A stretch of DNA of 44,880 bases from Actinomycetota bacterium. Lineage in GTDB: Bacteria; Actinomycetota; CADDZG01; WHSQ01. The position numbers were made by a program, and so were the translations under genes. The stretch is taken from the NCBI GenBank assembly GCA_030447315.1, contig JAUJPD010000008.1:81932-126811 (forward strand), written 5' to 3'. Position 1 is the stretch's first letter. Each line of letters begins with the position of its first letter. This document shows positions 5,618 to 43,371 of the stretch, piece by piece. Below the pieces are notes generated by a model. The model did not search any database, was not told the origin of the DNA, and saw only the letters and a list, made by a program, of their open reading frames with translations.

Positions 5618-5669
5618 CCTGTGCCCGCTAGATAGGCCCCTCAAGAGACTGCCCCAACCAAGGATCCGA

Positions 5670-6614: not shown

Positions 6615-6751
6615 CGGACCAGGGTAGACCGACCGCCCGCCATTGGTGGCCGCCGGCGTGTCGCACTCGCGCTCAGTGCCGTCCTGACGGTGTCACCGAC
6701 GGTGATGCTCAGGTCTGCAGGGATATAGGCGTGATCCAACATGTCGACCGG

Positions 6752-8736: not shown

Positions 8737-8774
8737 CTCCGTCTTATAACCCGGGTGGTGAAGCTTCGGTACTT

Positions 8775-9149
8775 CTACCCAGTGTTTGCGTCTTTCTTGG
8801 TCAGTGCGTCGTAGCGCTCCAGATACGAGGCGATGATGCGGGAGCTCTCTCGCAGCGTGCCTGCCCATGCGTGCAGCCAGTCGCGGCCCTCGTCGGTGAG
8901 CTCGTAGGTGCGGCGGGCAGGTCCGAGATCGGACGTCTGCCACACCGACCTCATGAGACCCTCTTGCTCCATCGCCCGGAGCGCTCGGTAGAGGCCACCT
9001 GGATCCGCGGTCTTCAGACCCATCTCTCGCAGACGCTCGAGCAGGTCGTAACCGTGAGCCGACTCCTCGGCCACGAGCAGGAACAGGCTGGCTCGCAGGA
9101 AGTTCTTCGGCAGTCCGCCGGTCGGCTCCTCACGGTCTCTTGTAGCCAT
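8775..9149 (-). CDS. PadR family transcriptional regulator
   Basis: 124 residues from the ATG at 9149. The PadR winged-helix pattern is clear: FLLVAEESAHGYDLLERLRE, then PGGLYRALRAMEQEGLMRS, then RRTYELTDEGRDWLHAW, and a C-terminal helix (ESSRIIASYLERYDAL) for dimer formation. PadR proteins are usually ligand-responsive repressors of neighbouring genes. This one is 38 bases ahead of the permease copy 3 gene and just behind a metal-tail winged-helix protein, so it may control the permease/DM13 operon. The effector is unknown. Confidence 0.9.
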   Translation of the reverse strand: MATRDREEPTGGLPKNFLRASLFLLVAEESAHGYDLLERLREMGLKTADPGGLYRALRAMEQEGLMRSVWQTSDLGPARRTYELTDEGRDWLHAWAGTLRESSRIIASYLERYDALTKKDANTG

Positions 9150-9163
9150 CGTCGTTCCTCTCG

Positions 9164-9599
9164 TCAGTGGTGGTCGTCGTCGTGGGGATGGTCGTCGTGC
9201 GAGCCGTGGAGGTGGGCAACCCGGCCCGCCGCACAGGCCTCGGCCTCGTCGGGATCGGAGTGACACCAGCAGTCGGCGCCGCATTCTCCGTGGCCGGGCC
9301 GGGTCAGGTCGGCGAACTCTTCCCCGAAGACCCGGCCCCCATGCCGCTTGCCCTCCTCGGTCATGCTGTAGAGCCCGTCGGGGGAGCGTTCGAGGAGGTT
9401 CTCCTCCACCAACCGGTCGAGGTACTGAACCCCGATCTGCGCGCCGACTCCCGAGGAACCGCTCGAGCAGGTCGTCGTCCACCCGGTCGCCGACGCCGGG
9501 GAACTTCTCGCCCTGGATCCAATACATGACCTGCAAGATCTCGTCACGCCAGAACAGCGCCCGCAGCGCCTCCGACTTCGGTTCGTGCAGTCTCTCCAT
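9164..9599 (-). CDS. Winged-helix-like protein with Cys/His/Asp-rich metal-binding tail (one frameshift)
   Basis: The ATG at 9599 gives MERLHEPKSEALRALFWRDE and continues to DDDLLERFLG. The frame then changes near 9450-9460 to VGAQIGVQYLDRLVEENLLE and runs to the stop at 9164. The middle (LDRLVEENLLERSPDGLYSMTEEGKRHGG) looks like a winged helix. The tail has HGECGADCWCHSDPDEAEAC and then HLHGSHDDHPHDDDHH, a strong candidate for Ni or Zn binding. It lies between a CooC-type ATPase and a PadR gene, so a nickel sensor or store for hydrogenase maturation is a reasonable inference. Confidence 0.7.
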
Positions 9600-9610: not shown

Positions 9611-10396
9611 CTAGCCCGTCGCCAAGAGGGGCTCTGTCGCCAGGACCTTGTCGACCAGGTCCGCGATCGCCCTGACCGACGGCGCGGACGGGGCGTGATC
9701 GATGGGAGCCGCTCCGGCCCGTTCGGCCTCGGCGAGCATCGGGTCGAAGGGCACCTGCGCGAACAGATCCAGGCCGTTGCTCTCGCAGAAACCCTCGATC
9801 GCAGCGGCGTCGTTCTCGTCGCGCACCTTGTTGGCAACCACTGTCACGCGAGGGATCCCGAGCTGCTTGCCCATGACGCAGTAACGGCGGGCGGTCTCGA
9901 GCGACTTGAAGTAAGGCTCTGCGATCACCAGCATCACGTCGACCGCCTCGGTAGTGGCCCGGCTGAGGTGCTCCGGCGATGCCTCGTTGTCAACCACGAC
10001 GACGCGCTCGGCGTCGGGAGCTTCGTGCAGAAGGCCACGAACCGTGGCGTGAGAGGAGCACATTCAGCCGGTGCCCGCCCCGGTCGGCGATCCCAACAGC
10101 AGCAGACGCACGCGATCGGGACAATCGATGCCGAACTTGGCGTCGACCTCCTCTACCGGCCGCGACAACGAGACGACCACCTCCCCGTTGACCCTCTTGT
10201 GGTCCATGAGTCCGTGCGGGAGCGGAACGATCGACTCGAACGTCTCCCGGGTGAGCCCCAGGGTCAGAGCCAGGTTGGGATTGGGGTCAGCGTCGATGGC
10301 AAGGACGGGATGGCCGGCGCGTCCGACGAGCCGGGCGAAGGTTCCCGACACGGTGGTCTTACCCGATCCGCCCTTCCCGGAGATGGCTACTTTCAC
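9611..10396 (-). CDS. CooC-type nickel-chaperone ATPase A with in-frame TGA (predicted selenocysteine, UxC)
   Basis: 262 codons from the GTG at 10396 to the TAG at 9611. The N-terminus is the deviant Walker A of MinD/CooC ATPases (AISGKGGSGKTT, residues 4-15), followed by LAIDADPNPNLALTLGL. Codon 111 is TGA (10064-10066), and the same frame continues MCSSHATVRGLL, VVVDNEASPEHLSRAT, ANKVRDENDAAAIEGF and FDPMLAEAERAGAAPIDH, all ordinary CooC features. In CooC the residues here are CxC, the dimer-interface Ni/Zn site. The TGA replaces the first Cys and Cys113 remains. A hairpin follows (10034-10048). An ATG lies right after the TGA, so a split gene is the alternative. I favour selenocysteine because two paralogues show the same substitution. 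Confidence 0.82.
10034..10048 (-). promoter_or_regulatory. Putative bacterial SECIS hairpin for CooC A
   Basis: On the coding strand GCCACGGTTCGTGGC forms a perfect 6-base-pair stem with a GTT loop (or 5 pairs with a GGTTC loop). It begins 16 nt after the in-frame TGA, and the first loop G is about 21-22 nt from it. Bacterial SECIS elements are short stem-loops just inside the coding region with a G at the start of the apical loop, and this fits. The hairpin also encodes the conserved ATVRG, so part of the symmetry could be coding coincidence. Confidence 0.6.
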
Positions 10397-11949: not shown

Positions 11950-13026
11950 TCAGCAGATCCGAGGCAGCGGATCTCCGATCAACATGTCCATGATCCGGGT
12001 GCCCCCGAAGGCGGTCTTCACTAAGACCATCCCCTGCGGTTCGTCCGCGACCTCTCCAATGACAGCCGCGTGCTCTCCCAGAGGCAGCTCCTGTAGCGCC
12101 GCGAGTGCCCCGTCGGCGACGGCGGGATCCACGATCGCCAACAACTTGCCCTCGTTGGCCACCGTCATCACGTCGATGCCGAGGATCTCGCTGGCCCCTT
12201 CCACCGCCGGGCTGACCGGGACCGCTTCCTCTTGCAGCACGATGCCGACGTCCGCGTCCCGGGCGATCTCGTTGAGCACCGTCGCGACGCCACCCCTGGT
12301 CGGGTCCCGCATCACGCGCAAGCCGGCCCCCGCGGCACCCAGCAGCGCATCCACCAGAGGCCACAGGGCGGCGGTGTCCGAGCGGATGTCAGCGTCCAGC
12401 TCGAGCTCGCCTCGGGCAAGCATGATCGCGGTGCCGTGGTCGCCAACGGTCCCCGAGCACAGGATCCGGTCACCGGGGCGGATCTGCGTCACGCCGAGCT
12501 CCGCGCGCTGGTCCCTGACGCCGATGCCGCTGGTCACGATGTACATACCGTCGGCCTTCGTCCTCTCCACCACCTTGGTGTCGCCGGCTACGACCGTCAC
12601 ACCGGCCGCGGCCGCTGCCGTGGCCATCGCCTGCACCTCCGCCCGCAACACATCTCCATCGAGGCCCTCTTCCAGGACGAAGGCCGCGGTCAGAGCAAGG
12701 GGCCGGGCGCCGATCATCGCAAGGTCGTTGACGGTCCCGTTGACCGCGAGCTCTCCTATGGAGCCGCCGGGAAACACCAGTGGCTTGACCACGAAGCCGT
12801 CGGTCGTGAACGCAAGCCTCGCTCCGTCGACATCCAGGGCCGCGGCATCGGCAAGCTCCGCCAGTTGAGGGTTGGCGAAGGCGGGCTCGAAAAGCCCGCT
12901 CACGAGCGTGTGAGTGGCCTTGCCTCCGGCTCCGTGAGCCATCGTGATGCGCTCGTCACGCCAGCGCGGCCGGAGCTTCCGCTGACGCTCGATACGCGCC
13001 AGAACCTCTTGCTCGAGGCCCGCCAC
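11950..13026 (-). CDS. hypE: HypE, carbamoyl-dehydrating hydrogenase maturation protein
   Basis: 358 residues, intact. It belongs to the AIR synthase/PurM superfamily, with the ITMAHGAGGKATHTLVSGLF opening and the TTDGFVVKPLVFPGGSIGEL segment. It ends in PRIC, whose C-terminal Cys358 receives the carbamoyl group from HypF and is dehydrated to a thiocyanate. The cyano ligand is then passed to iron on HypC/HypD. It sits in the order hypC, hypC-like, hypD, hypE on the minus strand; HypD ends one base before it starts. It should not be confused with SelD of the same superfamily: the PRIC end decides. Confidence 0.97.
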   Translation of the reverse strand: MAGLEQEVLARIERQRKLRPRWRDERITMAHGAGGKATHTLVSGLFEPAFANPQLAELADAAALDVDGARLAFTTDGFVVKPLVFPGGSIGELAVNGTVNDLAMIGARPLALTAAFVLEEGLDGDVLRAEVQAMATAAAAAGVTVVAGDTKVVERTKADGMYIVTSGIGVRDQRAELGVTQIRPGDRILCSGTVGDHGTAIMLARGELELDADIRSDTAALWPLVDALLGAAGAGLRVMRDPTRGGVATVLNEIARDADVGIVLQEEAVPVSPAVEGASEILGIDVMTVANEGKLLAIVDPAVADGALAALQELPLGEHAAVIGEVADEPQGMVLVKTAFGGTRIMDMLIGDPLPRIC

Positions 13027-14148
13027 CTACGCTCCGGCGCGCTCTTTGGAGCGAGCGAAGCGTCCGAAGTTGTAATAGGCGGCGCAGGCCCCCTCGGAAG
13101 ACACCATGCAGGTCCCGATCGGCGTCTCGGGGGTGCACGCGGTCCCGAACACCTTGCACTCCCACGGCTTGATCACACCTTTTAGGACCTCTCCGCACTG
13201 ACAAGCCTTGGGGTCCGCCACGCGGACGCCCGGCATCTCGAAGCGCAGCTCGGCATCCCAGTCCGCATAGGCATCCGAGAGCCGAAGAGCGCTCTGAGAG
13301 ATGAACCCCAGCCCGCGCCATTCGAAGTAGGGCCGCAGCTCGAACACCTCGGCCAGCACCTCGAGCGCCTTGAGGTTGCCTTCCCACGGCACCACCCGCG
13401 AGTACTGGTTCTCGACCTCGGACCGCCCCTCGGCTAGCTGCTTCATGATCATGAAGATCGACTGCAAGAGATCCAGCGGTTCGAACCCAGCGGTGACCAC
13501 CGGTTGTCCGTGATCCTTCGGGATGAACTCGTAGGGCCGGCAGCCGACGACGGTCGAGACATGTCCGGGACCGATGAATCCGTCGAGGCGCAGATCCGGC
13601 GACTCGAGCAAAGCGCGCAGCGGCGGGACGATCGTCACGTGGTTGCAGATGACCGAGAAGTTCTTGATCCTTTCCGCCTTGGCCCGCATCAAGGTCAGCG
13701 CCGTCGACGGCGCGGTCGTCTCGAAGCCGATCGCAAAGAAGACCACCTCGCGGTCGGGGTTGTTGCGAGCGATCTTCAGAGCATCGAGAGGCGAGTAGAC
13801 GAACCTGACGTCGGCCCCCTGTGCCTTCGCATCGAGGAGGCTGCCGTCGCCGCCCGGGACGCGCATCATGTCTCCGAAGCACGTGAAGATCACGCCCGGG
13901 CGCTTCGCCACGGCGATCCCGTCGTCGACGCGGCCCATCGGTATGACGCAGACGGGGCAACCCGGGCCGTGGACCAGCTCGACGGTGTCGGGCAGATGGT
14001 CCTCGATCCCGTGCTTGTAGATCGTGTGCGTGTGGCCCCCGCACACCTCCATGATCTTGTAGTGGCGGCCGGGCTCGGCGAGAGCCGCTATCTGGGCGGC
14101 GAGCCCGCGCGCCAGGTCGGCGTTGCGGAACTCGTCGACGAACCTCAT
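13027..14148 (-). CDS. hypD: HypD, Fe(CN)2CO assembly scaffold
   Basis: 373 residues, intact. Conserved cysteines are Cys36 in MEVCGGHTHTIYKHG and Cys64/Cys67 in VHGPGCPVCVIPMGR. The CFGDMMRVPGGDGSL motif follows, and the C-terminal [4Fe-4S] region is ACQCGEVLKGVIKPWECKVF with later CTPETPIGTCMVSSEGAC. HypD with HypC binds the iron atom and builds its CO and cyanide ligands. The start overlaps the stop of the second HypC-like gene (ATGA). No internal TGA is present, although the protein is Cys-rich. Confidence 0.97.
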   Translation of the reverse strand: MRFVDEFRNADLARGLAAQIAALAEPGRHYKIMEVCGGHTHTIYKHGIEDHLPDTVELVHGPGCPVCVIPMGRVDDGIAVAKRPGVIFTCFGDMMRVPGGDGSLLDAKAQGADVRFVYSPLDALKIARNNPDREVVFFAIGFETTAPSTALTLMRAKAERIKNFSVICNHVTIVPPLRALLESPDLRLDGFIGPGHVSTVVGCRPYEFIPKDHGQPVVTAGFEPLDLLQSIFMIMKQLAEGRSEVENQYSRVVPWEGNLKALEVLAEVFELRPYFEWRGLGFISQSALRLSDAYADWDAELRFEMPGVRVADPKACQCGEVLKGVIKPWECKVFGTACTPETPIGTCMVSSEGACAAYYNFGRFARSKERAGA

Positions 14149-14402
14149 GCGCTCACATCCAGTCGCGCGATCGCTACCCCGCCGTGGATCAAGAGGCGCT
14201 GCCCGGCTTCCACCGGAGCCACCAGCTCGATGCCGACGGTTCCGCGCTGGCCGTGGTCGTCCTGGCAGATCGCATCGGGGTCACCAGCTTCGATCACTGT
14301 CACGGGCACGGCCACGTCGCCGCAGGTGAGACACCCATCGATGACCGCGCAGACGGCGCCGTACGACTGAGGGTCCACCATCGGAAGCCGAGGACCGGTC
14401 AT
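14145..14402 (-). CDS. HypC-like protein 2 (DGCLTCGD variant)
   Basis: 85 residues from the ATG at 14402, overlapping the HypC stop by ATGA and itself overlapping the HypD start. It has the HypC-family barrel end (GTVGIELVAPVEAGQRLLIH GGVAIARL). It lacks the N-terminal MC of HypC and instead has an internal DGCLTCGDVAVPV after residue 22. Such second HypC-type proteins occur in actinobacterial hydrogenase clusters. It may act as a chaperone for one of the two large subunits. The N-terminal Cys that HypC uses to bind iron is missing, so its chemistry must differ. Confidence 0.8.
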   Translation of the reverse strand: MTGPRLPMVDPQSYGAVCAVIDGCLTCGDVAVPVTVIEAGDPDAICQDDHGQRGTVGIELVAPVEAGQRLLIHGGVAIARLDVSA

Positions 14403-14671
14403 GTGATGTCGGTGGTCTTCAGTTGCTCGAGCTCGTCCTCGTATTCCTCGCCGAGGCCCTGAAGGAAGTCCATCGTGGAACGGGCCTCGTTCTCGTCGAT
14501 CTTCGACATGGCGAAACCGACATGGATCAACACCCAGTCCCCGGTCTCCACACCTTCCGGCGCGATCAGACCGAACTGCACGTCGCGCCGTACGCCGCCG
14601 ACCTCGACCTTGGCGATGTTGAGCTGTGGGTCGACGATCTCGACGATTTGGCCCGGAATCCCAAGGCACAT
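14399..14671 (-). CDS. hypC: HypC/HupF chaperone
   Basis: 90 residues. The start is the ATG of MCLGIPGQIVEIVD, the invariant HypC beginning; Cys2 binds iron in the HypC-HypD complex. Nine extra in-frame residues upstream are not used. The barrel core is VGGVRRDVQFGLIAPEGVET followed by GDWVLIHVGFAMSKIDENEA. HypC carries the Fe(CN)2CO unit from HypD to the hydrogenase large subunit. A GAAGGGG ribosome site precedes the ATG. It heads the hypC, hypC-like, hypD, hypE, SIS run. Confidence 0.95.
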   Translation of the reverse strand: MCLGIPGQIVEIVDPQLNIAKVEVGGVRRDVQFGLIAPEGVETGDWVLIHVGFAMSKIDENEARSTMDFLQGLGEEYEDELEQLKTTDIT

Positions 14672-14733
14672 AGCGAACCCCTTCTCTCGAAGGTGCAACT
14701 ATATGTCGGCAACACCCATAGGAGGAGACGCGC

Positions 14734-15243
14734 TCATGGCCCTGATGCGGCCGGTGGGTCGTCGGGAGGATCGTCGGGGATCTGCGTGAAGACCTGCGGA
14801 TACATCGAGCTGATCCCCCCGGCCAGCCGGACCAGGTAGTCGCTGTCGCCCCCAAGCCGGCGCGCTTTCTTAGCCGCCCAGCACGCCCCGGCCGCGTCAC
14901 CGGAACGAGCGAGCATCTCGGCTGCGGCGGCCAGCACCTTCCAACTCTCGACAGCCGCCGCCGTGGCCCTGCAAGCCTCGCTCGCCAACCGCCGGATGGC
15001 GGGCACCGAGACGGCAGGAGGATCCTTCTCCGCATGGCCCAGCACCAGCGTCACGGTGGCATATGTGAGTCCGGCTCCGGCATAGGTGCGCTCGAACGAG
15101 GTCAGTCGAGAGCCGGCGGCCACAAGTGCCTTGGCCTCTTCTCGCAGCCCGGCGGCGGCGGCGACCGCCTCTTCCACCTGGCCCACACCCAGAAGCTCTT
15201 GGGCTGCCCTGACTTCGTCATAGACAGCTTTCGCCCGGCGCAT
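14734..15243 (-). CDS. Alanine-rich helical protein, unknown function
   Basis: 169 residues, all predicted helix by composition (AQELLGVGQVEEAVAAAAGL, then VESWKVLAAAAEMLARSGDA). The pattern is loosely TPR-like, with a Pro-rich end (PDDPPDDPPAA). No family is recognised. It is the first minus-strand gene downstream of a shared divergent region (15244-15335) and is followed 62 bases later by hypC, so it may be the first gene of the hyp operon. The frame is clean and long, and the position supports a real gene. Confidence 0.65.
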   Translation of the reverse strand: MRRAKAVYDEVRAAQELLGVGQVEEAVAAAAGLREEAKALVAAGSRLTSFERTYAGAGLTYATVTLVLGHAEKDPPAVSVPAIRRLASEACRATAAAVESWKVLAAAAEMLARSGDAAGACWAAKKARRLGGDSDYLVRLAGGISSMYPQVFTQIPDDPPDDPPAASGP

Positions 15244-17003: not shown

Positions 17004-17760
17004 TCAAGCCGGGACGGCCATCTCCTTCTCGACCGCGTCCAAGAGCCGGTCCACCGCCTTCACCGCTTCCGAGCCGGCGTCCGCATCGATCACGGCCTGT
17101 CCCCGGCGGTCAGCATTGCGCGCGACCTCGTCGTAAGGAACGATCGCCAGCAAGGGAAGCCCCGTCCCGAGCGAAGCTCTCGACGATCTCTCGATCCTGA
17201 TCGTCTTCGACCTTGCTGCCCACCCCGTAGATGCGTGGGATGCCGAGGTCGGTGGCGAGCTCGAAGCGTCCGGCGCCGGTCTCCAGCGCTTTCCTGTAAG
17301 GCTCGAGCACGACGAGGAGAACGTCTACGTGGCGAAGCGTTCCGCCGGAGCGGGATAGATGCTCGAGCCCCGCCTCCATGTCGGCGATCGTTAGTTGGTG
17401 GTCCTCCGAGAGGAGGTCACCCAACATGCCACGCACGGTGGCATGAGAGCCGCAAGCTCAGCCACCGGCGGCTTGGTCCACCCTTGCGCCGATCACCAAG
17501 GTGACGCCGTCGGGGGCCTCGATGCCGTACCCGGTGATCAGCCGGTCGGCCGACATCGGTTCTCGACCCTGTATCGACTTCGGCAATGCCTCGGCCGCAT
17601 CCAGAACGTCGAAACTGAGACCGAGACTGGCGCCGAGGTTCGGATTCGAGTCGCAGTCGATCGCGAGTGTTCGATACCCGCGTCGCGCCGCGAGACGAGC
17701 GAGCGTGGCAGAGATGGTCGTCTTTCCGGTGCCACCCTTGCCCGATATAGCTACCTTCAT
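17004..17760 (-). CDS. CooC-type nickel-chaperone ATPase B with in-frame TGA (predicted selenocysteine, UxC)
   Basis: The ATG at 17760 overlaps the biotin-ligase-like stop (ATGA). Residues 1-15 are MKVAISGKGGTGKTT, and LAIDCDSNPNLGASLGL follows. Codon 101 is TGA (17458-17460). The same frame continues ACGSHATVRGMLGDLL and ADMEAGLEHLSRSG, so the site reads U-A-C where CooC has C-x-C. There is no start codon just after the TGA, which makes a split gene unlikely. A separate one-base indel near 17165-17175 shifts the C-terminus, which resumes LLAIVPYDEVARNADRRGQA and ends VEKEMAVPA at the TGA at 17004. A hairpin in the same position as in CooC A lies at 17428-17442. Confidence 0.8.
17428..17442 (-). 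promoter_or_regulatory. Putative bacterial SECIS hairpin for CooC B
   Basis: On the coding strand GCCACCGTGCGTGGC has a 5-base-pair stem (GCCAC/GTGGC) and a CGTGC loop. It begins 16 nt after the TGA, the same distance as in CooC A, with the loop G about 22 nt away. It covers the same ATVRG codons as in CooC A, so coding conservation contributes, yet synonymous changes keep the stem (GTT to GTG falls in the loop). Confidence 0.55.
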
Positions 17761-20784: not shown

Positions 20785-20906
20785 GCGGTGCATCCTCCGC
20801 CACTATGCCCATCCGTTGAGCCTCATCCATGACGTTTCATCCTCCGCCCGAGCGCGTCTATGCCCATCCGTTGACCCTCATCCATGATGCGTTGCATCCT
20901 CCACCG
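20773..20906 (-). repeat. Tandem repeat of a ribosome-site/start-codon unit
   Basis: Two long units (20803-20848 and 20858-20906) are nearly identical, and a third, truncated unit (20773-20801) covers the TPR start. Read on the minus strand each has GGAGGATG, then a short spacer and an ATG followed by GATGAG or ACGGATGAG. The longer units can encode the starts MDEGQRMGI and MDEAQRMGI. The array joins the end of the protease gene to the start of the TPR gene. It looks like a local duplication of a translation initiation region. Confidence 0.75.
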
Positions 20907-21338
20907 CGCCCGGCCACCGGCGGTGACAGCTCGCTCTCCAAGCGGTCCATCACCAGGGGCTGACAGCCCACCAGCACCGTCTTCGCGGGAAGGATCTTCA
21001 ATGCGTGGGCGAGCATCAACGCTTTCGAGGGCTTCGTGTAATGCATGTCGGCGAGATAGTCGAACCGCTCCATGTTGGTCATGCCCTCGGAGCTGTCGAT
21101 CTCCGGCTCGATCACCATGACGGTTCCGGGGGGGCGACCCCGGTCGACCGCGTCCACCATGATCAAGGCGTCGTAGCCGCCGAGGATCTCCTGCACCAGA
21201 TGGATCCCCCGGTTCCGGTCTCCACGACCTTCACCCCGGCCGGCAGATCTGACTGCTGCAGCCGGTGAGCGACCACCACTCCTGGAAACCATCGTCGCCC
21301 TGGAGCAGATTGCCCACTCCGGCGACCAGGATCCTCAC
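20858..21338 (-). CDS. [NiFe]-hydrogenase maturation protease A (HycI/HyaD-type, frameshifted)
   Basis: The GTG at 21338 starts VRILVAGVGNLLQGDDGF, the conserved beginning of the family (GxGNxLxxDDGFG), whose Asp binds nickel. After frame changes near 21290 and 21220 the protein continues IHLVQEILGGYDALIMVDAV (the second metal-binding Asp), SEGMTNMERFDYLADMHYTK and TVLVGCQPLVMDRLESELSP. These proteases remove the large-subunit C-terminal peptide after nickel insertion. The Met-rich helix before the end resembles proteases of group 1 hydrogenases. Downstream is the repeat array and the TPR gene. Confidence 0.75.
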
Positions 21339-29290: not shown

Positions 29291-30975
29291 ATGGCGCCGA
29301 CCTTGACTCGACGCAGCAACCTCGCAGTCGCGCCGGGCCTCCACCAGAGTGTCGCTGGAGCCGGTCACACGCGCCAGCGGAGCACTCGGGGTCCAGGTGG
29401 ACACCGATGGCGACGCGATCACCAACGCATGGGTGTCGGGCAACTTTCAGCAGGGGCTACGAGCAGATCCTCCAGGGCCGAGATGGGCGCGCGACATCGT
29501 CCCGATCTCATCTCGCATCTGCGGCTGGTGTGGCGCCGCACCAGACGACGGCGTCGCTCGCGGCGAGATGGCGGGGCATCTCGCCTCCGCCGATGGCGGT
29601 GACGCTGCGGTCGGTCGTGCGAGGAGTGCACCGAGGCGATCTGGATCCACGCGGCGCATCCGGCGACCTGCGCCGGCCCCGACATTGCGTTCCCGTGGTG
29701 GCGGCGACCTCGCCGTCCATCTGGGCCATGGCCGAGCGAACCAGTGCCCGGGGGCCGCGATCCACGGATACGAAAGCATCGGCGAGTTGATGCAGGGCTT
29801 GACTCCGGGAACCGGCCGCTACCGGGACCGAGACGTTGCCCGCCGGGCGTCGGGTCCAAGAGATGATCAACCTGATGTACGGCAAGTTCCCCTCATCCCT
29901 CGGTCGTCCAGGCGGGCACCGTGGGACAGCACCTGACGTGGGCGAACTTCACCGAGTACTACACGCGCCTCTACATGTCGGTCGACTACGTGAAGCAGGT
30001 CTGTGCTCTCTGGGACGACCTGGTCGACTTCTTGCTCGAGGCGGGATCTGCGCTTCGCCGAGCTCGGTGCGCGCCCTGCCAACCTCATCAATGCCGGCGC
30101 CTGGGACGACGTTCGCTCCACCTATTCGTACGACAACCTGGACGCAGCGGGCCGAGGGCGTCTCGCCCGGCCGGGTGTGATCCTCGGGGGTGAGGTGGTC
30201 GAGGATCGACTGACCGAGATCAACCGGGGATCGAAGAAGACATCGACCACTCGTTCTTCGAAGCCCACAGCTCGCCCGGCAACGGCCCCGACGACGCCGG
30301 GAGCCATCCGCCGGTCACCCCTGGCTCAGCTCGCCGTCGCTGCAGCCGGCGGCTCGTGACCTCGATGGTCGCTACTCCTTGCCACGGCCCCTGCTGGCGC
30401 GGCGAGGGCCGGAGACGGGGCCCTGGGTCGCTTGTGGCTGACGGCGACGCGAGAGGATCTCCCGGAGAACGACTTCATCCAACCCACGGGGACGGGCGTG
30501 AAGATCTTGATCCCGATGAACTTCCAGCCGGAGATGACGGTGGAATGGAAGATCCCCGAGCGTGTCAACGCACTGGAACGTCTGCGTGCGGACGCGCATG
30601 GAGTGGCTTTGCAGGGCTGTGCGCAGCGCTGCGCTGTTGAAAGGATTCGAGCTGATGAGGTCTGGAGAGACCGGTGTCGGTACCGCTGGAGGTTCCGGTG
30701 ACAGAGCCATGGGCGTCGGTCTGTGGGACTCGGGCCGGGGCATGAACGTCCACTGGATGACCACCCAGGGCGGGAAGGTCTCCGGCTACCAGGTCATCGG
30801 ACCGTCGACATGGAACGCGCCTGCTCGCGACCCGAGGGGAAAGCCCGGGCCGCTCGAGGAGGCCCTCGATCGGCAGTCCGGTCCTGTTCGAAGGCGGCGA
30901 TCGCTTCGCCGGATGATCGATGCCGCTCGGGTGATCCATTCCTTCGACCCCTGCATGAATTGTGGGACCCAGTGA
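29291..30975 (+). CDS. [NiFe]-hydrogenase large subunit A (heavily frameshifted)
   Basis: An AAGGAG site precedes MAPTLTRRSNLAVA. Corrected frames give the N-terminal nickel motif SSRICGWCGAAHQTT, then IHGYESIGELMQGLTPGTGR, MINLMYGKFP, TWANFTEYYTRLYMSVDYVK, ENDFIQPTGTGVKILIPMNF, VSGYQVIGPSTWNA and the C-terminal nickel motif IHSFDPCMNCGTQ. About ten frame changes lie between 29335 and 30900. The stop comes three residues after the last nickel Cys and overlaps the small-subunit start as GTGA, so there is no cleavable tail; Gln stands at the usual His position. It belongs to the group 1 uptake type, and the subgroup is not certain. Confidence 0.8.
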
Positions 30976-32161
30976 CGAACGGATCAACGAACGGCTCGAG
31001 CACCATCGCCAGCCCATTCGACGCTGGGCATCAGAAGCGCCCCCGAAGAGCGAGACCTCAGCCGCCAGCTGCGTGGATGGGCCCGCTCGAGAAGATCTAC
31101 CTGCTGTGGGTGTCCGGTGGAGCCTGCGACGGCTGCACCGTGGCCGTCGTCGGCGCCACCAACCCTCCGGTCGAGCACCTGATGGCGGGCATATAGTGCC
31201 CGGACTTCCAAAGGTCGAGCTGCTGCACACGCTCACTTCTCTGGAGATGGGTGACGACTACATCCAGACGCTGCAGATGGCCTCCCGAGGCGAGCTCGAC
31301 GCGCCTTACGTCCTCGTCTACGAGGGATCGGTGTTCGACGAGGAGCTCTCTAACGAGGGCAACTTCTACACGCTGGGCAGGATCCGGAAACCGGCCTCGG
31401 CATCTCGTCCACCGAATGGCTCGGGAAGTTGCCCCCAATGCGGCAGCCGTCATAGCGATAGGCACCTGCGGCGGCATGGGGCGGCATCCCCGCCGGCGAG
31501 GGCAATCCCACAGGCTCGGTCGCGGTTATGGACTACCTGGGCAAGGACTATCGCTCCGCCTTCGGGGTCCCCGTCGTGAACATTCCCGGTTGCTCGCCGA
31601 TCGGCGACAACTTCATGGAAACCGCAGCGGCGGTCCTGTTGTTCCTCCAGGGGCTCGGGCCTCTTCCCGACTTCGATGAGTTGGGCTGCCGGTGTGGCTG
31701 TTCAAGGAGACGGTGCACAGGCATTGCCCCGGCCGGCTACTACGAAGAGGGGGTGTTCTCGCCGAGGCCTACGGCGGCCACGAGTGTTTGGTCGAGCTCG
31801 GCTGTTGGGGACCGGTGGTGCAGTGCAACATCGCCGACCGGGGCATCGTCAACGGCACGGGCGGATGCATGCAGATGGGGGGACTCGCATCGGCTGCACC
31901 ATGCCCGGCTTCCCCGACAAGTTCTCGCCTCTGTTCTCGACTCCACCGGGATCGCTGCTGTCGTCGAACACCTCGCGGGTCTTCGGCGGGTTCATCCGTC
32001 GCATCCGGCGCATCACCATGGTCGACAAGAACCGGACCGCTCGCTGGGAAGGCGTCCAGGCGCCCAGTGGATGGGCCCGTTACAACACGAGAACCCGAGG
32101 CCCCATCACGTTGGTCCACAAGGCGTACCGCGCTTATCAGCACAGCAAGATCGGTGGTTAG
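30972..32161 (+). CDS. [NiFe]-hydrogenase small subunit A (frameshifted)
   Basis: The GTG at 30972 is coupled to the large subunit. Cluster-binding residues seen include GACDGCTVAVVGATN, AIGTCGGMGGIPAGEG, VVNIPGCSPIGDN, ETVHRHCPRAGYYEEG, ELGCWGPVVQCNIADRG, and GGCMQMGGTRIGCTMPGFPD, which carry the three Fe-S clusters. No twin-arginine signal is evident at the N-terminus, which suggests a cytoplasmic-side enzyme. Frame changes lie near 31195, 31390, 31470-31480, 31690-31730, 31760 and 31890. It ends AYRAYQHSKIGG, like subunit B. Large-before-small order is the reverse of hydrogenase B. Confidence 0.82.
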
Positions 32162-33189: not shown

Positions 33190-33560
33190 GCGCGCAGCGA
33201 ACGATCGAGCAGCACTTCTGGCCAAGCCGGCGCGGATCGAGCACCTGCTCGGCCACCCGAACCGCGTAGCCCTTGATCGTCCACCACGCCAGGTAGGCCT
33301 CGAGTTGTTGGAACGTCTCGCCGTCTATCTCGTCGGAACCGTGACAGCCGGCGCTCGACCTCACCGGCGATGATCCGATCGAGAGCGCTGACCAACAGTG
33401 GCTCGGGATACAGCAACAGTCCATCGGCTTCTTCGGTCCGGATGCGATCCCCGATCTCGGTAGACAGCTGGTCGAGATCTTCGGGGAGGCCGGGCGGAGG
33501 CTCCCAGCAGGGCGTCGGTATCCGACTCCTCAACGCGGCGCAGGCAGTAGCCGACGGTTA
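33155..33560 (-). CDS. Hypothetical protein downstream of the NifU-like gene (frameshifted)
   Basis: Two frames join: LDQLSTEIGDRIRTEEADGL, LLYPEPLLVSALDRIIAGEV, ERRLSRFRRDEIDGETFQQL, EAYLAWWTIKGYAVRVAEQV, ending IDLVPRPRRL at 33155. The frame change is near 33345. It is probably about 130 residues, all helical, and I do not recognise the family. The start is not clear. It is part of the hydrogenase B minus-strand train and overlaps the convergent Nfu_N gene slightly. Confidence 0.45.
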
Positions 33561-34292
33561 ACGCAGTTCGCCCAGATCCCGAACTCGGGTGCAGGTTGCT
33601 GTTCCTGTTGCTCTGCGACCATGGCGGTCAGGCATGCCTGCGCACGAGCAGCGTCAATGGGTGCGCCTGCGCCAGGGCGTGCGCGAAAGACGATGTCGTC
33701 TAAAGAAAGGGTCACTGTCGCGCAGAGATTGATCTGGTGCACCTTCGGTGGAGCTTGCTCGGGGCGGCTTCCTCGACGCCTTCGACCCCGATACCGCGCC
33801 GGGCCAGCGCCTTGGAGGATCTTCTCCACGCCCTGCGTCAGGGTGAGAGTGCCGGAAGGACAGCCATCACACGAGCCCATCAGGCGCAGTCGAACGATGC
33901 CCTGGGACACGCCGAGGACCTCCATCTCGCCACCGTGCGAGTGCAGGTAGGGCCGGATCTCGTCGAGGGCTTCCTCCAGCGACTCGGCAAGATCGTCGGG
34001 CTCGTCTTCCTCCGCGAGGTAGGTCTCGAACAGGCGAGCGGCGACGGGGGTCCTGCGCCAGGGAATCGACGGCATCTCCCGGAAGCATCGATGCGATACG
34101 AACCACCGCCTCGCGGTGGAAACCATCGACCCAATCCAGCAACTCGAAGGCCAGCCCCTGGTCTCCGACTCGGGTGTCGCTTGGAGGTGCTCGACGATCT
34201 CGCCCATGCGCACGAAAGTCTTCGTCCAGCTCCATCTCCTCGGACTGGACCTCGGTCTCTGGGGGCGGACGAACCGAACGAGTCTGCGTCAC
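33530..34292 (-). CDS. NifU-like Fe-S scaffold protein (frameshifted)
   Basis: The GTG at 34292 opens VTQTRSVRPPPETEVQSEEM and overlaps the protease stop. After shifts near 34205, 34165 and 34050 it reads MGEIVEHLQA, LAFELLDWVDGFHREAVVRI and ARLFETYLAEEDEPDDLAES. The NifU C-terminal domain follows: EIRPYLHSHGGEMEVLGVSQ and MGSCDGCPSGTLTLTQGVEK, with the CxxC that holds a labile Fe-S cluster. A further about 80 residues to 33530 have no clear match, and the true stop may lie nearer 33720. It likely helps assemble clusters for the hydrogenase small subunits. Confidence 0.7.
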
Positions 34293-34863: not shown

Positions 34864-36749
34864 CTATTCCAACGTGCACGAACACGAGTTCACCTCACGC
34901 ACGATGACACCGCGGGCCGGTGTCGAGGTGGGTCGTGCACGGCATGCAGGGGTCGAACGACCGATCGTCCTGAGAACGTCGATGCCCTTGAGCTCGTCGT
35001 CCTTCGTGGTCTCTAGAAGCGGCGTCCCGATGATCGCTTCCTCGTAGGCCCCGGGATTGCCGAACGGGTCACGAGGAGAAGCGTTCCAGGTCGACGGCGT
35101 GTTGATCTGGTAGTTCACGATCCGGCCCTTGTCCATCGTCATGTGATGGCTGAGGTAACCGCGGCCCGCCTCCGGTGAAGCCGCACGACGCGATCTCACC
35201 CTGGGGGATCGAGAACTTCGACCACGCCTTCGTCTCGCCCTTGCGCCACAGGTCGAACGCCTGGAGAAGCATGTTCATGGTGATCGCCGCGGTGAAGGCG
35301 ACGCCGTAGGCGCGGCCCCGGTTGCGCTCGAAGGCATTGACCTGTAGAACCTTCCACTCGAGCTCCATCTCGGGCAGCTCGAACTTGGGCATCAACATCT
35401 TGAGCCCGTCTCCGGTGGCCTGGATGAAATCGTTCTGCTGCATCTTCTGAGCCATCGCGGTGGTCCCATGCGCCCGTAGACGCCGGTCTCCATCGTCTCG
35501 CGGTCCCAGCGGGGGGCGCAGTCCCACGAGTACTTCTCTTTGAAGTTACGACCCTCGGGCCGGGGAATCGTGGACTTGTTCCATGCGTGGTACGGAGACA
35601 GCGGGTATCCGGCGGGGTCCGTCTTGAACTTCTGTCCGCTCTCTCCGTCGGTCCCTCCTCGTAGAACGAGTGGGAGACGAACTCCTCGATGCCGCAGTTG
35701 ATCTCGTGGAGGTTGGTCGTCACCAACTCGCCGTTGCGGATGACGCCGGGCATCGACCAGCGCTGGTCCCCCCACTCGGCCATGTTCTCGTACTTCGCGT
35801 CGAAGGACCAGGGATCGTCCCAGATGCCGGTCTGGATCAGGTTGTTGGGTCGAGCACCAACCAGCGCATAATCCGGGTTGTGCTCGAGGAAGAAGTCCAG
35901 CACGTCGTCCCACCACAGCGCGATGCGCTTGGAGTAGTCGAAGAACTTGATCAGGCGCGTGTAGTACTCGTTGAAGCTTGTCGTCGACAGCGTGGTCATC
36001 ACGCCACCCGGCACCAGCGTCGACGGGTGCGGGTACTTGCCGAACATGTAGTTGCACATCTCGCACGTCCGAGGCGGGTGAACTCGATCGCCTCGAGGTA
36101 GATGGCCCCGGTCAGGGGGTCCATCGCATCCATGATGTCTTTGATGGTCTTGTAGCCGTGTACGTGAGCATGAGGCGCAGAGGTGTTCTCGGCCTTGCGG
36201 ACGATCTCGGGGTTCGTGACCGAAACGAGCGCGGTCGAGTAGTCGGGTCCGGCCAACAGCCCGAGGTGGATCGGGTGGTCGTAGAGCATCTCGGCTCCTG
36301 CACCGAGGTTGCGAACGGTCACGCCCATCGGAGGCGTCTGCACCCCGAAGGCCATGTCCAGTGCCTGGGAGGAGACCGAGGAGTGAACACCGCCGCAGAC
36401 ACCGCAGGCCCGTGAGGAGATGTCGATCGCGTCTCTCGGGTCCCGACCCTGCAGGATGATCTCGTAACCCCGGAACAACATCGCCATCGAGTGAGCCTCG
36501 ACCGCCGCGGCGCTCGACGTCGAGCCCGATGTGAACGGCAAGAGCGCCCGCAACGCGCGTGATCGGGTCGATCATCCAGTCGCGCACCTTGCCCTCGGTG
36601 GCGATCGCTCCCCCGCCGATGGGACGCTGGATAGTCTTGGTGTAGGCCTTCGTGGCTGCGCCCGTCAGCGAGTACGGGTCCGCGATGCCCTCTCTGAGTC
36701 GCGCCTTCCCGTTCTCGTCGAACTCGAGCGGGAGGTTCTTAAAACACAT
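34864..36749 (-). CDS. [NiFe]-hydrogenase large subunit B (frameshifted)
   Basis: The ATG at 36749 gives MCFKNLPLEFDENGKARLRE, then DWMIDPITRVAG. Corrected frames add GYEIILQGRDPRDAIDISSR, the N-terminal nickel motif ACGVCGGVHSSVSSQALDMA, CNYMFGKYPHPSTLVPGGV, TTSFNEYYTRLIKFFDYSKR and VNYQINTPSTWNASPRDPFG, and near the end RSFDPCMPCTTHLDTG with the two last nickel Cys and His. After the His a tail VIVREVNSCSCTLE remains to be cleaved. Both nickel Cys pairs are TGC/TGT; there is no TGA here. Frame changes lie near 36530-36610, 36070, 35650, 35460, 35190 and two within 34915-34965. Confidence 0.83.
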
Positions 36750-36795
36750 CCGGGTTCACCTTTCCTCTTCTTTCATGCGACGGGTGAGCAGCTGC

Positions 36796-38028
36796 TCAGT
36801 GCCCGATCTTGGAGTGCTGGTAAGCGCGGTAGGCCTTGTGGAGGAGCTTCTGAGCACCCTTCGGCTGCGTGTTGTGCGCCCAACCCGATGGGGCCTCTTT
36901 GCCTTCCCAGCGGACGCTCCGGTTCTTGTCCGCCATTGTGGCGGTGCGCATCCTGCGGATGAACCCGCCCGTTACGCGACGTGTGTCGGGACGAGATGAA
37001 CGAACCGGGAGGCGCCGAATAGGCGAGAACTTGTCGGGGAAGCCCGGCATCGTGCACCCGATGCAGATGCCCCCCATCTGCATGCAGCCACCCGTCCCGT
37101 TGAGGATGCCTCGCTCGGCGATGTTGCACTGGACCACGGGCCCCCAGCAACCGAGCTCGACCAAGCACTCCTTGTCCCCGTAGGACTCGGCGAAGACGCC
37201 TTCTTCGTAATAACCGGCGCTTGGGACAGTGGCGATGGACGGTCTCGCCGAACAGCCACGCGGGGCGACCGAGCTCGTCGAATTCCGGAAGGGGCGCCAA
37301 GCCCTGCAGGAACAGCAATACGGCGGCCGCCGTCTCCATGTAGTTGTCACCGATAGGCGAGCACCCAGGGACGTTCACGACGGGGACACCGAAGGCCGAC
37401 CGATAGTCCTTGCCCAGGTAGTCCATGACCGCCATCGACCCGGTCGGGTTGCCCTCGGCGGCGGGGATGCCACCCCAGGTGGCACAGGTTCCGATGGCGA
37501 TGACGGCCGCGGCCTTGGGGGCCAGACGACGCATCCACTCGGCCGACGTGATGGTGCGCCCGGTCTCGGGATCCTCGCCGAGCCCCATGAAGTAACCGTC
37601 CCCGGAACGGGTCTCGTCGAACATCGAGCCCTCCCAGGTGACAACGAAGGGCGCGTCCAACTCGCCGCGTTCCGCCATGAAGAGGTTGTGCACCCACTCC
37701 GGACCGGACTCGACCGAGGTCACGGTGTGGATGAGCTCGAGCTTCGGAAGGCCCGGGACGATGCCTGCGAGCAGGTGCTCGACCCGCGGGTTGGTGGCGC
37801 CCGTGACTGCGATCGTGCAGCCGTCGCAGGACCCGCCGACCATCCAGATCAGGTAGATCTTCTCGAGGGGGCCGAGGCGCATCGCGTTGTTCGCCTGCGG
37901 GAGCTCGACGACCTTGCTGCGCATGCCGACGGCTGCGAAGGGATCTCTCCCGTCCATGTCCTCCGGCCGGTTGCCGTGAGAGGTGTGGGCTTCAGCGCCT
38001 GCGAGGTAGAGGTTTTAGCCTCGGCCAT
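36796..38028 (-). CDS. [NiFe]-hydrogenase small subunit B (frameshifted)
   Basis: The ATG at 38028 (site GGGAGGACGC) gives MAEAKTSTSQALKPTPLTAT, and a shift near 37965 leads to MDGRDPFAAVGMRSKVVELP. The cluster ligands follow: GGSCDGCTIAVTGATN, AIGTCATWGGIPAAEG, VVNVPGCSPIGDN, TVHRHCPSAGYYEEG, ELGCWGPVVQCNIAERG and GGCMQMGGICIGCTMPGFPD. It ends AYRAYQHSKIGH. Frame changes are near 37215 and 37010. It is about as similar to subunit A as close paralogues are, with the same lack of an obvious Tat signal. The large subunit starts 46 bases downstream. Confidence 0.85.
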
Positions 38029-39581: not shown

Positions 39582-40346
39582 ATGCGGATCGCGGTGGTGG
39601 GCAAGGGCGGCGCCGGCAAGTCGGTCGTCGCCGGCACCATGGCGCGCCTGTTGGCCCGCGGCGGTGACAAGGTCCTGGCCCTCGACTCGGACCCGATCCC
39701 CGGCCTGGCCATCAGCCTCGGGCTCGGCCCCCTCGACACTCCCATGCTGCTGGACGCGGTCGAGAAAGACGACAACGGACGGTGGCGTTTGAAGAAGGGC
39801 ATCGGGGCCGCTCGAGCGGTCCAGCGTTACTCGCTGGTGGGACCCGACGGCGTCCGGCTGCTTCAGTTCGGAAAGACCACCGCATCGGGGCTGAAGGACT
39901 TCATGGGCTCGGTGAACGGCTTCTACCAAGTGGTCCATCGGTTGGCGAGAGATGACTCCCTGTCGGGTTGGACGATCGTCGGAGACCTTCCCGCGGGCCC
40001 CCGTCAGACCGCCTTCGACTGGGTCCCCTACGCCGACAAGCTCGTACTGGTGGTGGAGCCAACGTGGCAGTCGATCCTCACCGCGCGCCGGATCGCTCGC
40101 ATCTCCCGACAACGCTCCGGGGTCGAAGTGGTCGCTTTCGGCAACAAGCTTCGCGAGGACGGAGACACCGATCTCATCGAAGAGCGGCTGGGCGAGCGTC
40201 TTGGAGGTTCCCTGCCCTTCGACCCGCTGGTGGCCGAGGCAGATGCCCACGGGAAGGCGCTCATCGATCACGCGCCCGATTCCCCGGCGGTGCATGCGAT
40301 CGAGCATCTCATCGACGCAATCTCCCGGCGTAAGGTGAGCGCATGA
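39582..40346 (+). CDS. CooC-type ATPase C, lacking the CxC motif
   Basis: 254 residues, intact. The deviant Walker A is VVGKGGAGKSVVAGTMARLL, and LALDSDPIPGLAISLGLGPL follows. The central region reads DFMGSVNGFYQVVHRLARDD where relatives have the metal motif; no CxC or TGA is present. Later features are ADKLVLVVEPTWQSILTARR and GNKLREDGDTDLIEERLGER, and it ends RRKVSA. It is coupled (ATGA) to CooC D, and the two may form a heterodimer in which only D carries the metal ligands. That is inference. Confidence 0.85.
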   Translation: MRIAVVGKGGAGKSVVAGTMARLLARGGDKVLALDSDPIPGLAISLGLGPLDTPMLLDAVEKDDNGRWRLKKGIGAARAVQRYSLVGPDGVRLLQFGKTTASGLKDFMGSVNGFYQVVHRLARDDSLSGWTIVGDLPAGPRQTAFDWVPYADKLVLVVEPTWQSILTARRIARISRQRSGVEVVAFGNKLREDGDTDLIEERLGERLGGSLPFDPLVAEADAHGKALIDHAPDSPAVHAIEHLIDAISRRKVSA

Positions 40347-41086
40347 AGATCGCGGTTGCGGGCAAGGGCGGTGTCGGCAAGACCACCATCTCGGGCACCC
40401 TGGCTCGCCATCTTGCCCGCACGGGCATGCCCGTGATCGCTCTGGACTGCGACACGAACCCGATGCTCGGGGTCTCGCTGGGGGTCGGGCCGGAGGAAAC
40501 CGATCGTCTCGGAACCGTCCGCCAAGGTCTAGACACCGGCGAGGTAGAGCACCAACCAACCACTCAAGGCATCGTGGAGACGTTCGGAACCGATGCTCCC
40601 GACGGCGTGCGCCTGGTGGTGGTGTCGCGCATTGACAACATCGACCCCGGCTGACCCTGATGTGGGGTTTCGCCCGAGCAGTTGCTCGGTGAGCTAGAGC
40701 AAGAAGGGGCAGCGGTCATCTGCGACCTGGAGGCCGGGGTGGGATCGCTGTTGCGCATGAGCGACGGGCACGTCGACGTCACGCTGGCGATCGTCGAGCC
40801 GACGGTGAAGTCGATCGAAGCCGCTACTCGCGCCGCGGCCATCGCCTCGGGACACGGAAAGGTGATCGTCGTCGCGAACCGGGTCAGAGACGACTCCGAC
40901 ACCGAGTTGATCCGTTCGGCCTTCCCCGACCACGACATGCACGTGATCCCCTATGACGCCGCGATCAGGCGGGCCGACCGGGAGGGAACCGCTCCGATCG
41001 ACTTCGGCGACAGCAGCGCCGGTCTGGCCGCGATCGCACAGCTCGCCCACAGGATCTCTCGATCGGACCCGGTGGAGGCTGCCTAG
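40343..41086 (+). CDS. CooC-type ATPase D with two in-frame TGA codons (predicted U-P-U-C)
   Basis: 248 codons in one uninterrupted frame apart from TGA at codons 104 (40652-40654) and 106 (40658-40660). The N-terminus is MKIAVAGKGGVGKTTISGTL, with LALDCDTNPMLGVSLGVGPE-type sequence (here IALDCDTNPM). The critical region is NIDPG-TGA-P-TGA-CGVSPEQLLGEL, where cysteine homologues would be expected to read CPCC. ICDLEAGVGSLLRMSDG, VIVVANRVRDDSDTELI and IPYDAAIRRADREGTAPIDF follow. No base needs to be inserted or deleted. A perfect hairpin follows at 40674-40689. It ends overlapping the HypF stop by 4 bases. Confidence 0.82.
40674..40689 (+). promoter_or_regulatory. Putative bacterial SECIS hairpin for CooC D
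   Basis: CCGAGCAGTTGCTCGG forms a perfect 6-base-pair stem with an AGTT loop (or 7 pairs with a GT loop). It begins 14 nt after the second TGA, and the loop G is 21 nt away, essentially the same distance as in CooC A. The encoded residues here (PEQLLG) differ from those under the other two hairpins, so the structure is not explained by protein similarity. Confidence 0.65.
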
Positions 41087-43371
41087 ATCAGCTTCGCGCT
41101 CGCCACGACGGCTTGTCCGAGACTGACCCCGCCGTCGTTGCACGGGACCTGGCGGTGGAGCAACACCTCGAAGCCGCGGTCGCGCAATGCGCTGCGGACG
41201 CGTTCCAGGAGGAAGACGTTCTGCCAGGTCCCCCCCGACAGCGCCACGACCTCGATACCCGTAGCAGCCCGCGCGCCGAGGGCTGTTTCCACCAGGCCCG
41301 CCGCGAGGCCGTTGTGGAACCCCGCGGCCGCCTCGGGGACCGAACGGCCGGCGGCGACATCCTCGGCCAGAGCTCTTATCAAAGAGACCCCATCGAGACG
41401 GCCGTCGGAGAACGGGAACGGATACACGAGGCCGCTCGAGGGATCGGCAACGTTCTCTAACTCGGCGGCGGCCTGTCCCTCGTAACTGGAGCGGGTCCGG
41501 AGTCCACACACCGCGGCCGCGGCGTCGAAGAGCCGCCCCGCGCTGGTTGCCTCGGGTGAGTTCAACCCCCGGCGAGCCATCTTCAGGATGGGCGCCCACT
41601 TGCTCCCTGTTTCTCTCACGACCTCTAGCGCCAGCTGGTACGCGCCGTCGCCGAAGCCGGCCTCCAGATAGACCGCCGCCATGCGCCACGGCTCTTTGAT
41701 TGCGGCCTCGCCGCCCGGCAGCGACACGGGGGCCAGATGTGCAAAGCGTTCGTAGCCGGTCAGGTCGGCAACGAGGATCTCGCACCCCCACAGGGTTCCG
41801 TCGTCTCCCATGCCCGTCCCATCGAGGGCGAGGCCGATGACGCGATCGGACCGGTTGTTGTCCGCGAGGCAGGAGGCTATGTGCGCATGGTGGTGTTGAA
41901 CCCCGATCTTGGTCGGAGCCTCAGACGACAGCGCCCATCTCGTGGCGAGATAGCCGGGATGCAGGTCGTACGCGACCACATCGACCTCGTCGATGTCGAA
42001 GAGGCGCTTCAGGTGAGCGACGCCGTCGGTGAACGCCGCCATAGCTGCGTAGTTCTGCAGATCGCCGATGTGGTGGGAAACGACGGCCAGGTCTTCGACC
42101 CCCAAACAGAACGTGTGCTTCAGCTCGGGTCCTGTCGCGAGAACCGGACGAGAGAAAGTCGTCGGAACGCTGATCGGTTGGGGCACGTAGCCACGCGAGC
42201 GGCGGATCAGATACTCCTGCGAGCCCACCGCTCTGACCACCGAGTCATCACAGCGGGTCCGGATCGGGCGGTCGTGGATCAAGAACGCATCCGCCACCTG
42301 TTGCAACCGCTCGTAGGCGTCGTCGTCCTGGAACGCCACCGGCTCATCCACAAGGTTGCCCGAGGTCATGACCAGCGGACGCCGCACCGCGGCCAGCAGC
42401 AAGTGATGCAGAGGCGTGTACGGCAGCATCAATCCCAGGTATGGGTTGCCCGGCGCTACCTCTTCGGCCACCGCGGTTGAAGGCCGTCGGCGCGACAGCA
42501 CGATGGGGGCGCGTGGAGACGAAAGCAGCGCCTCCTCCTGGCTGGTGATCACGGCCAGCTCGCGTGCTGCCGCCAGGTCGGCGACCATCAGGGCCAGCGG
42601 CTTCGCCTCCCGGTGCTTGCGCGCCCGCAGACGTTTCACCGCGTTGGCGTTCGTGGCGTCGCAGGCCAGGTGGAAGCCTCCCAACCCTTTGATGGCGACG
42701 ATCGCACCTTGGATCAAGAGCTCGGCCGCTCCTTCGAGGGCCTCGGTCGCGACGGCCTCTTCTTCGATGGCGCCGCCCTCGGCAGTCAGCAGCCGCAACC
42801 TCGGCCCGCACTCGGGACACGCGATCGGCTGCGCATGGAAGCGCCTGCTCCCTTGGTCCGAGTATTCAGCCGCGCAGGCGCGACACATCTCGAACGATGC
42901 CATCGTCGTGTTGACACGGTCGTAGGGCGAAGCGGCAACGATCGTGAAACGAGGTCCGCAGTCGGTGCAGTTCGTAAAGGCATAGCGATGTCGTCTGTCA
43001 CGTACGTCTTCGACCTCGGCGGCACACGCCCGGCAAGTGGCCAGATCCGGCGGTATCGAAACCCGAACCCGTCCTTCGCTTCGGCTCGAACGGATCTCGA
43101 ACGTCGTCGCGTCGGCGATGTCTATGTCTTCCGTCTGAAAACTGGTGATCGACGCCAGGGGCGGAGGGTCTGCGCGCAGCGCAGCCTCGAAACGAGCGAC
43201 CGCGGCTTCATCACCCTCGGCCTCGATCGCCACGCCTCGAGGGTCGTTGACGACGTAGCCGGTCACGCCCATCTCGATCGCGCGCCCGTAGACGAAGGGA
43301 CGGAACCCGACACCTTGCACCACACCTTGGATATGGAAGCGCCTGCGGATGCGTCGATGCATGACAGTCAT
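41083..43371 (-). CDS. hypF: HypF carbamoyltransferase
   Basis: 762 residues, intact. Domains in order: acylphosphatase (IQGVVQGVGFRPFVYGRA, residues about 10-95); two zinc fingers (CRACAAEVEDV to NCTDCG, and CRACAAEYSDQ to ACPECG); a YrdC-like domain (RLRARKHREAKPLALMVADL, APIVLSRR); and the Kae1-like carbamoyl transfer domain (QHHHAHIASCLADN, GLALDGTGMGDDGTLWGCE, VVALSGGTWQNVFLLERV, NDGGVSLGQA). It makes the carbamoyl group for HypE from carbamoyl phosphate and ATP. The usual WGGE motif is WGCE here. It is convergent with CooC D and the stops overlap. Confidence 0.97.
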   Translation of the reverse strand: MTVMHRRIRRRFHIQGVVQGVGFRPFVYGRAIEMGVTGYVVNDPRGVAIEAEGDEAAVARFEAALRADPPPLASITSFQTEDIDIADATTFEIRSSRSEGRVRVSIPPDLATCRACAAEVEDVRDRRHRYAFTNCTDCGPRFTIVAASPYDRVNTTMASFEMCRACAAEYSDQGSRRFHAQPIACPECGPRLRLLTAEGGAIEEEAVATEALEGAAELLIQGAIVAIKGLGGFHLACDATNANAVKRLRARKHREAKPLALMVADLAAARELAVITSQEEALLSSPRAPIVLSRRRPSTAVAEEVAPGNPYLGLMLPYTPLHHLLLAAVRRPLVMTSGNLVDEPVAFQDDDAYERLQQVADAFLIHDRPIRTRCDDSVVRAVGSQEYLIRRSRGYVPQPISVPTTFSRPVLATGPELKHTFCLGVEDLAVVSHHIGDLQNYAAMAAFTDGVAHLKRLFDIDEVDVVAYDLHPGYLATRWALSSEAPTKIGVQHHHAHIASCLADNNRSDRVIGLALDGTGMGDDGTLWGCEILVADLTGYERFAHLAPVSLPGGEAAIKEPWRMAAVYLEAGFGDGAYQLALEVVRETGSKWAPILKMARRGLNSPEATSAGRLFDAAAAVCGLRTRSSYEGQAAAELENVADPSSGLVYPFPFSDGRLDGVSLIRALAEDVAAGRSVPEAAAGFHNGLAAGLVETALGARAATGIEVVALSGGTWQNVFLLERVRSALRDRGFEVLLHRQVPCNDGGVSLGQAVVASAKLI

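Follow-up and report, generated by a model that had tools for sequence, protein, structure and literature searches.

The stretch of DNA that we analysed (hereafter the window; 44,880 nucleotides from an Actinomycetota bacterium) carries [NiFe]-hydrogenase and maturation genes, together with a gene, here called D (40343-41086, + strand), that encodes a CooC-like P-loop ATPase. D is set between gene C (39582-40346, +), a CooC-like paralogue recognised by translation and alignment that possesses no CxC motif, and the gene of HypF (41083-43371, -), which is convergent with D. The TGA stop codon of C overlaps the start codon of D (ATGA). As for HypF, family matches identified HypE (11950-13026), HypD (13027-14148), a HupD-like hydrogenase maturation protease (20858-21292) and a NifU-like domain protein of the hydrogenase locus (33530-34213), all on the minus strand, where a protein with a C-terminal HypC-like domain (14145-15035) was also found by a match below the curated cut-off of the family. 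The hydrogenase is encoded by genes for a large subunit (34867-36749, -) and a small subunit of the group-1h type (36773-37957, -), both frame-shifted in the assembly, and its relatives have Ralstonia HofK/HofG (5aa5) as their best match. From this match and from general knowledge, we take it to be a group 1h enzyme, the actinobacterial type. We looked for selenocysteine (Sec) in the large subunit and found its active-site motifs, CGVC and DPCMPC, to be all-Cys. A second pair of large and small hydrogenase subunits, with an RICGWC motif and apparent frame breaks, lies at 29440-31966 (+).

Translated with TGA left open, D gives 247 residues followed by a TAG stop, and its only TGA codons are codon 104 (40652-40654) and codon 106 (40658-40660), with TGT coming next. 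The initial annotation had reported a single frame over 248 codons with these two TGAs, and translation of 40343-41086 confirms it. The resulting motif, U104-P-U106-C107, stands in the context DPG-U-P-U-C-GVSPEQLL. D is a CooC/MinD-type P-loop ATPase with a Pfam CbiA match, the MinD/CooC fold and a deviant Walker A, GKGGVGKTT, of the GKGGxGKT pattern and as found in CooC1. Indeed, its top PDB sequence match is CooC1 from Carboxydothermus hydrogenoformans (3kje; E 3.4e-18, residues 1-207), and the CooC-like reading spans both TGAs. In the alignment, the C-Y-C of CooC1 falls on U104 (Cys112) and U106 (Cys114), so that the TGAs do occupy the CxC column, as had been supposed; this column holds U-x-U in D and C-x-C in some members of its clade. 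In CooC1, Cys112 and Cys114 bind metal at the dimer interface (PMC6006190). The AlphaFold2 model of D has a mean pLDDT of 88.7, with a low value of 59 for the motif loop, and Foldseek placed CooC1 at rank 2, with about 28% identity in the structural match, MinD/FleN-type ATPases being matched as well. Finally, substitutions 3' of the TGA number 796, 633 and 1252 at codon positions 1, 2 and 3, and this third-position excess indicates selection on the protein beyond both TGAs.

Whole-genome searches that read through stops, together with one contig search, gathered 14 genes of the D clade, which is supported 98/94 in our tree. If the two TGAs encode Sec, a series of Cys and Sec versions would be expected among homologues, as the initial annotation predicted, and all three kinds were found. 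UPUC occurs in four genes from two families (the window genome, G004, G269 and G211), C-x-UC as CPUC or CLUC in six (G015, G010, G289, G393, G239 and G152), and C-x-CC in four (CMCC in bin21, and CQCC, CYCC and CLCC in the three copies of G381). The first column of the motif is therefore TGA in 4/14 genes and a Cys codon in the remainder, and the second is TGA in 10/14 and a Cys codon in four; orthologues from other genera likewise have TGA or a Cys codon at both columns. A single clade of UPUC genes was rejected (p-AU 0.00026) and the first motif position changed at least three times on the D tree, so double Sec seems to have arisen or disappeared on more than one occasion, and this speaks against error. 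In the tree, canonical CooC proteins with C-x-C-P-E form a clade apart. A CQCC version (L119:9811-10533) retains an apparent, decayed remnant of the hairpin of D described below (GGAGCAGUUGUUGG), which would suggest a loss of Sec.

These data bear on whether D could be a sequencing error, a pseudogene or two split genes. Frame breaks occur nearby in the gene of CooC B (17143-17760) and in both hydrogenase subunits (34867-37957), and SelA is split across two frames (L017/L018), all of which suggests indel errors of the assembly and would lend this explanation some ground. However, the frame of D has no such break, protein-level selection extends past its TGAs, TGA recurs at the same columns in other genomes and Cys versions exist. 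We consider such an artefact very improbable, in line with the earlier opinion that sequencing error explains D poorly; the two TGAs are very probably genuine, since relatives appear to exchange Sec and Cys at the same positions.

The window genome also has the means to insert Sec: it encodes a tRNA-Sec with the anticodon TCA (UCA), SelA (in the two frames mentioned above), SelB, and SelD, which has an in-frame TGA of its own. The lack of a Sec system, which had been named as a ground against double Sec, was hence not what we found. With this machinery in the genome, a reassignment of TGA in the whole organism, for example to Trp, is hardly conceivable, the more so as homologues carry Cys and not Trp at both columns and as TGA serves as an ordinary terminator in the window, ending for instance C, HypE and the HypC-like gene. 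TGA as a sense codon throughout was rejected for the same reason, many genes of the window terminating in TGA. When the other genes of the window were screened all-against-all for conserved TGAs, the outcome was mostly antisense noise, and the CooC-like genes alone stood out among the matches listed.

Downstream of the motif, the comparison of UGA-bearing with Cys genes points to a candidate bacterial SECIS hairpin, CCGAGC-AGUU-GCUCGG (40674-40689, +). It consists of a 6-bp stem, beginning 13 nt downstream of the second UGA, and an AGUU loop at a distance of 19 nt from that UGA and 25 nt from the first; both distances conform to the bacterial SECIS model, in which the loop lies 16-37 nt after the UGA (PMC13188914). 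The region 40664-40700 has a minimum free energy of -14. A hairpin of this type, with its loop 19 nt past the second UGA, is found in 10/10 UGA-bearing D genes and in 0/4 Cys versions. Across the ATPase groups, it is found in 28/29 UGA genes and 1/23 Cys genes, with at least six U/C changes on the tree; in these counts related genes are not independent, and the criterion (at least six pairs, a G at loop position 1 or 2, spacing of 15-37 nt) was set after the sequences had been seen, the f13 genes having a spacing of 15, one below the published range. A sign test on independent lineage pairs had too few of them for significance (four on supported branches). The stem of the A-type genes shows compensatory variants (GCCAC/GUGGC, GUCAC/GUGAC and GCUAC/GUAGC), synonymous conservation along the D gene is highest in a 12-codon window that begins four codons past the UGA, and the Leu codon of the loop is UUG in 10/10 UGA-bearing D genes, UUG making up 9.6% of the Leu codons of these genes. 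Taken alone, the hairpin of the window gene did not differ significantly from synonymous shuffles (P 0.15), and an Rfam scan of the window gave no match at the gathering threshold. Folding energy against per-gene shuffles is too weak a measure by itself, because short GC-rich stems are common, and we replaced it by position-specific and UGA-versus-Cys comparisons; the strength of the putative SECIS lies in the comparison across genes rather than in the window gene alone.

Altogether, the frame, the column, the Sec genes, the exchange series and the candidate hairpin argue strongly against sequencing error, a pseudogene or stop reassignment, and the double-Sec interpretation of the initial annotation is supported at the level of sequence. 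We propose that both in-frame UGAs would be read as Sec by SelB and tRNA-Sec, under the guidance of one SECIS hairpin whose loop is within the allowed distance of each. Sec at position 106 appears very likely and Sec at position 104 somewhat less so, though still likely. Two points count against double decoding: the first UGA is present in only 4/14 genes of the D clade, and the service of two UGAs by one hairpin is an arrangement that we infer. One may then suppose that the second UGA alone encodes Sec, the first being either a misassembled TGC/TGT or a codon at which translation partly terminates. Six genes of the clade with Cys first and UGA second would fit this, as would the fixed distance of the hairpin from the second UGA and the frame breaks elsewhere in the assembly. 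Nevertheless, UPUC is present in four separate genomes, spread over two families and not grouping as a single clade, Cys is the sole other residue at these columns, and the loop lies within range of the first UGA too, which leaves a single Sec improbable.

Sec in this protein group is not restricted to D. The window holds two further CooC-like paralogues with one TGA each: A (9611-10396, -; motif U-M-C, TGA at 10066-10064), recognised by read-through searches and alignment, and B (17143-17760, -; motif U-A-C, TGA at 17460-17458), whose 3' part is seemingly frame-shifted in the assembly. They belong to a second group of ATPases with U-x-C (A, B and others in families f1, f13 and f43) or C-x-C, and in a few cases U-x-G. 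In the related ATPases with U-T-G or U-G-G (L112:1738-2472, L117:7353-8087, L122:6019-6717 and L118:7208-7921), this motif replaces C-x-C and Sec would be the sole remaining ligand; the L118 gene has no recognisable hairpin. The motif-less C group is sister to the D group, and at 12/13 checkable D loci a C gene precedes D in the same orientation.

The setting of D questions which metalloenzyme it might serve. In relatives too, many Sec-CooC genes adjoin the same hydrogenase genes. In the eight draft Sec-CooC genomes tested (G000, G004, G010, G012, G015, G094, G126 and G143), the window genome among them, we found no CooS in 8/8 and neither HypA nor HypB over the cut-off in 8/8, whereas CooS, HypA and HypB were all present in 6/6 genomes of the same phylum with a canonical Cys-CooC. 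The joint absence of the three from eight drafts is unlikely to have arisen by chance. HypB over the cut-off was also absent in 11/15 further genomes; it was present in G381, which has Cys versions only, and in G221, G173 and G318, which have U-x-C-type genes, and the absence of HypB is therefore not universal. The HypB model (TIGR00073) was not among the matches of the D protein.

While CooC1 is its top PDB sequence match, it is very improbable that D is a true CooC inserting nickel into CO dehydrogenase: the canonical C-x-C-P-E proteins form a separate clade, and the Cys-CooC genomes tested have CooS, of which none was found in the 8/8 Sec-CooC genomes tested. D is probably not a CO-dehydrogenase factor, given this absence of CooS and the position of the genes beside a hydrogenase with HypCDEF. 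The name CooC thus fits the sequence and the fold of D; in its CO-dehydrogenase sense it is probably wrong, as the genome search yielded no CO dehydrogenase and D lies within a [NiFe]-hydrogenase locus.

We can propose the following role for D. Its product would be a MinD/CooC-type ATPase in which U-x-U, with a conserved Cys after it, has taken the place of the C-x-C metal motif. If CooC1 is a guide, the selenolates may hold a soft metal ion (Ni2+ being the best candidate) at a dimer interface controlled by nucleotide, and ATP turnover would free the metal to a client. The likeliest client is the adjoining group-1h-type [NiFe] hydrogenase, Sec-CooC acting in place of the missing HypA and HypB. 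We judge it likely, on the analogy with CooC1, that U-x-U is a metal site, and we lean slightly towards D as a supplier of nickel to the hydrogenase, a role against which counts the report that Rhodospirillum rubrum CooC has no part in the maturation of its hydrogenase (PMC6006190). The CxC-less paralogue C, directly upstream, is a possible dimer partner, in which case the Cys after U-x-U might be a third ligand in a heterodimer to which C would contribute none; we regard such a C-D heterodimer as conceivable and rather doubtful. Considered as a whole, the proposal that D is a selenoprotein and a MinD/CooC-type nickel chaperone replacing HypA/HypB seems probable to us.

The main functional rival makes D a MinD-type regulator of the hydrogenase locus whose Sec motif would have a redox role, sensing peroxide or acting as a selenenylsulfide switch. 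In its favour, an oxidoreductase function is assumed for many selenoproteins (PMC13188914), the adjacent U, U and C could make Se-Se or Se-S bonds, and several U-x-C genes adjoin PadR-type regulators. Set against this, the motif falls on the known metal-ligand column of CooC1 and the locus belongs to a genome without HypA/HypB; we hold a redox role to be unlikely in comparison with metal delivery. A PadR-type regulator gene often adjoins the A-type ATPase gene, be it U-x-C or C-x-C (window 8775-9599; L066, L067, L069, L070 and L109).

As a metal chaperone, D would resemble several known systems without coinciding with any. It shares with CooC1 the deviant Walker A, the fold and the C-x-C column, and differs by its low identity, by Sec for Cys, by the extra Cys after the motif and by a genome in which no CO dehydrogenase was detected. 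A CooC would further be expected to bind one Ni or Zn per dimer, depending on nucleotide. Like HypB, D is encoded among [NiFe]-hydrogenase and maturation genes and is proposed to be an NTPase metallochaperone for this enzyme, but it is of the MinD/CooC type and not a G3E GTPase, does not match the HypB model and occurs in a genome that lacks HypA too; ATP-hydrolysing homologues of HypB are known in Archaea, for example in Thermococcus kodakarensis (PMC12134894). The CxCC metal motif of COG0523 proteins is spaced as the U-x-U-C of D (PMC9164220), and a CobW-related selenoprotein, NF041053, is already catalogued as a P-loop protein of metallochaperone type with Sec; it is of another NTPase class, however, and has one Sec in a motif listed as UxxC. 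In [NiFeSe] hydrogenases selenium is also proposed to bind nickel (PMC13188914), but there the enzyme itself carries Sec, whereas here Sec belongs to the presumed chaperone and the enzyme has an all-Cys active site. Finally, two Sec residues in a short motif are known from the Prx-like, metal-binding and FmdB-type families, all with UxxU.

The initial annotation considered that a double-Sec metal site in a P-loop ATPase would be novel. Neither a CooC or MinD-type ATPase nor the U-x-U motif is listed in the 2026 catalogue of 119 prokaryotic selenoprotein families (PMC13188914), and a search of NCBIfam 20.0 with D returned no selenoprotein model. Our literature search on Sec with CooC or with metallochaperones, whose scope left out preprints and most subscription journals, found nothing relevant among the papers listed. 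With the CobW-related protein catalogued, Sec in a P-loop protein of metallochaperone type is not wholly unprecedented.

If our reading is correct, Sec-CooC would constitute an unusual new selenoprotein family, made up of ATPase metallochaperones in which Sec is the proposed metal ligand rather than part of an oxidoreductase, and it would suggest a route for the nickel loading of some hydrogenases without HypA or HypB. More broadly, uncultured Actinomycetota might insert nickel into [NiFe] hydrogenases by means of selenium, CooC-like ATPases with double or single Sec and a ligand-less partner replacing HypA/HypB, with Se in the chaperone and Cys in the enzyme; we put this forward tentatively, its chances falling a little short of even. 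Annotation that takes UGA as a stop would register Sec-CooC genes as truncated. Elsewhere in the window (1481-8943, -), several permeases, none with an internal TGA, weakly resemble SO_0444/SaoE efflux transporters, a type of family that in other settings is associated with selenoproteins.
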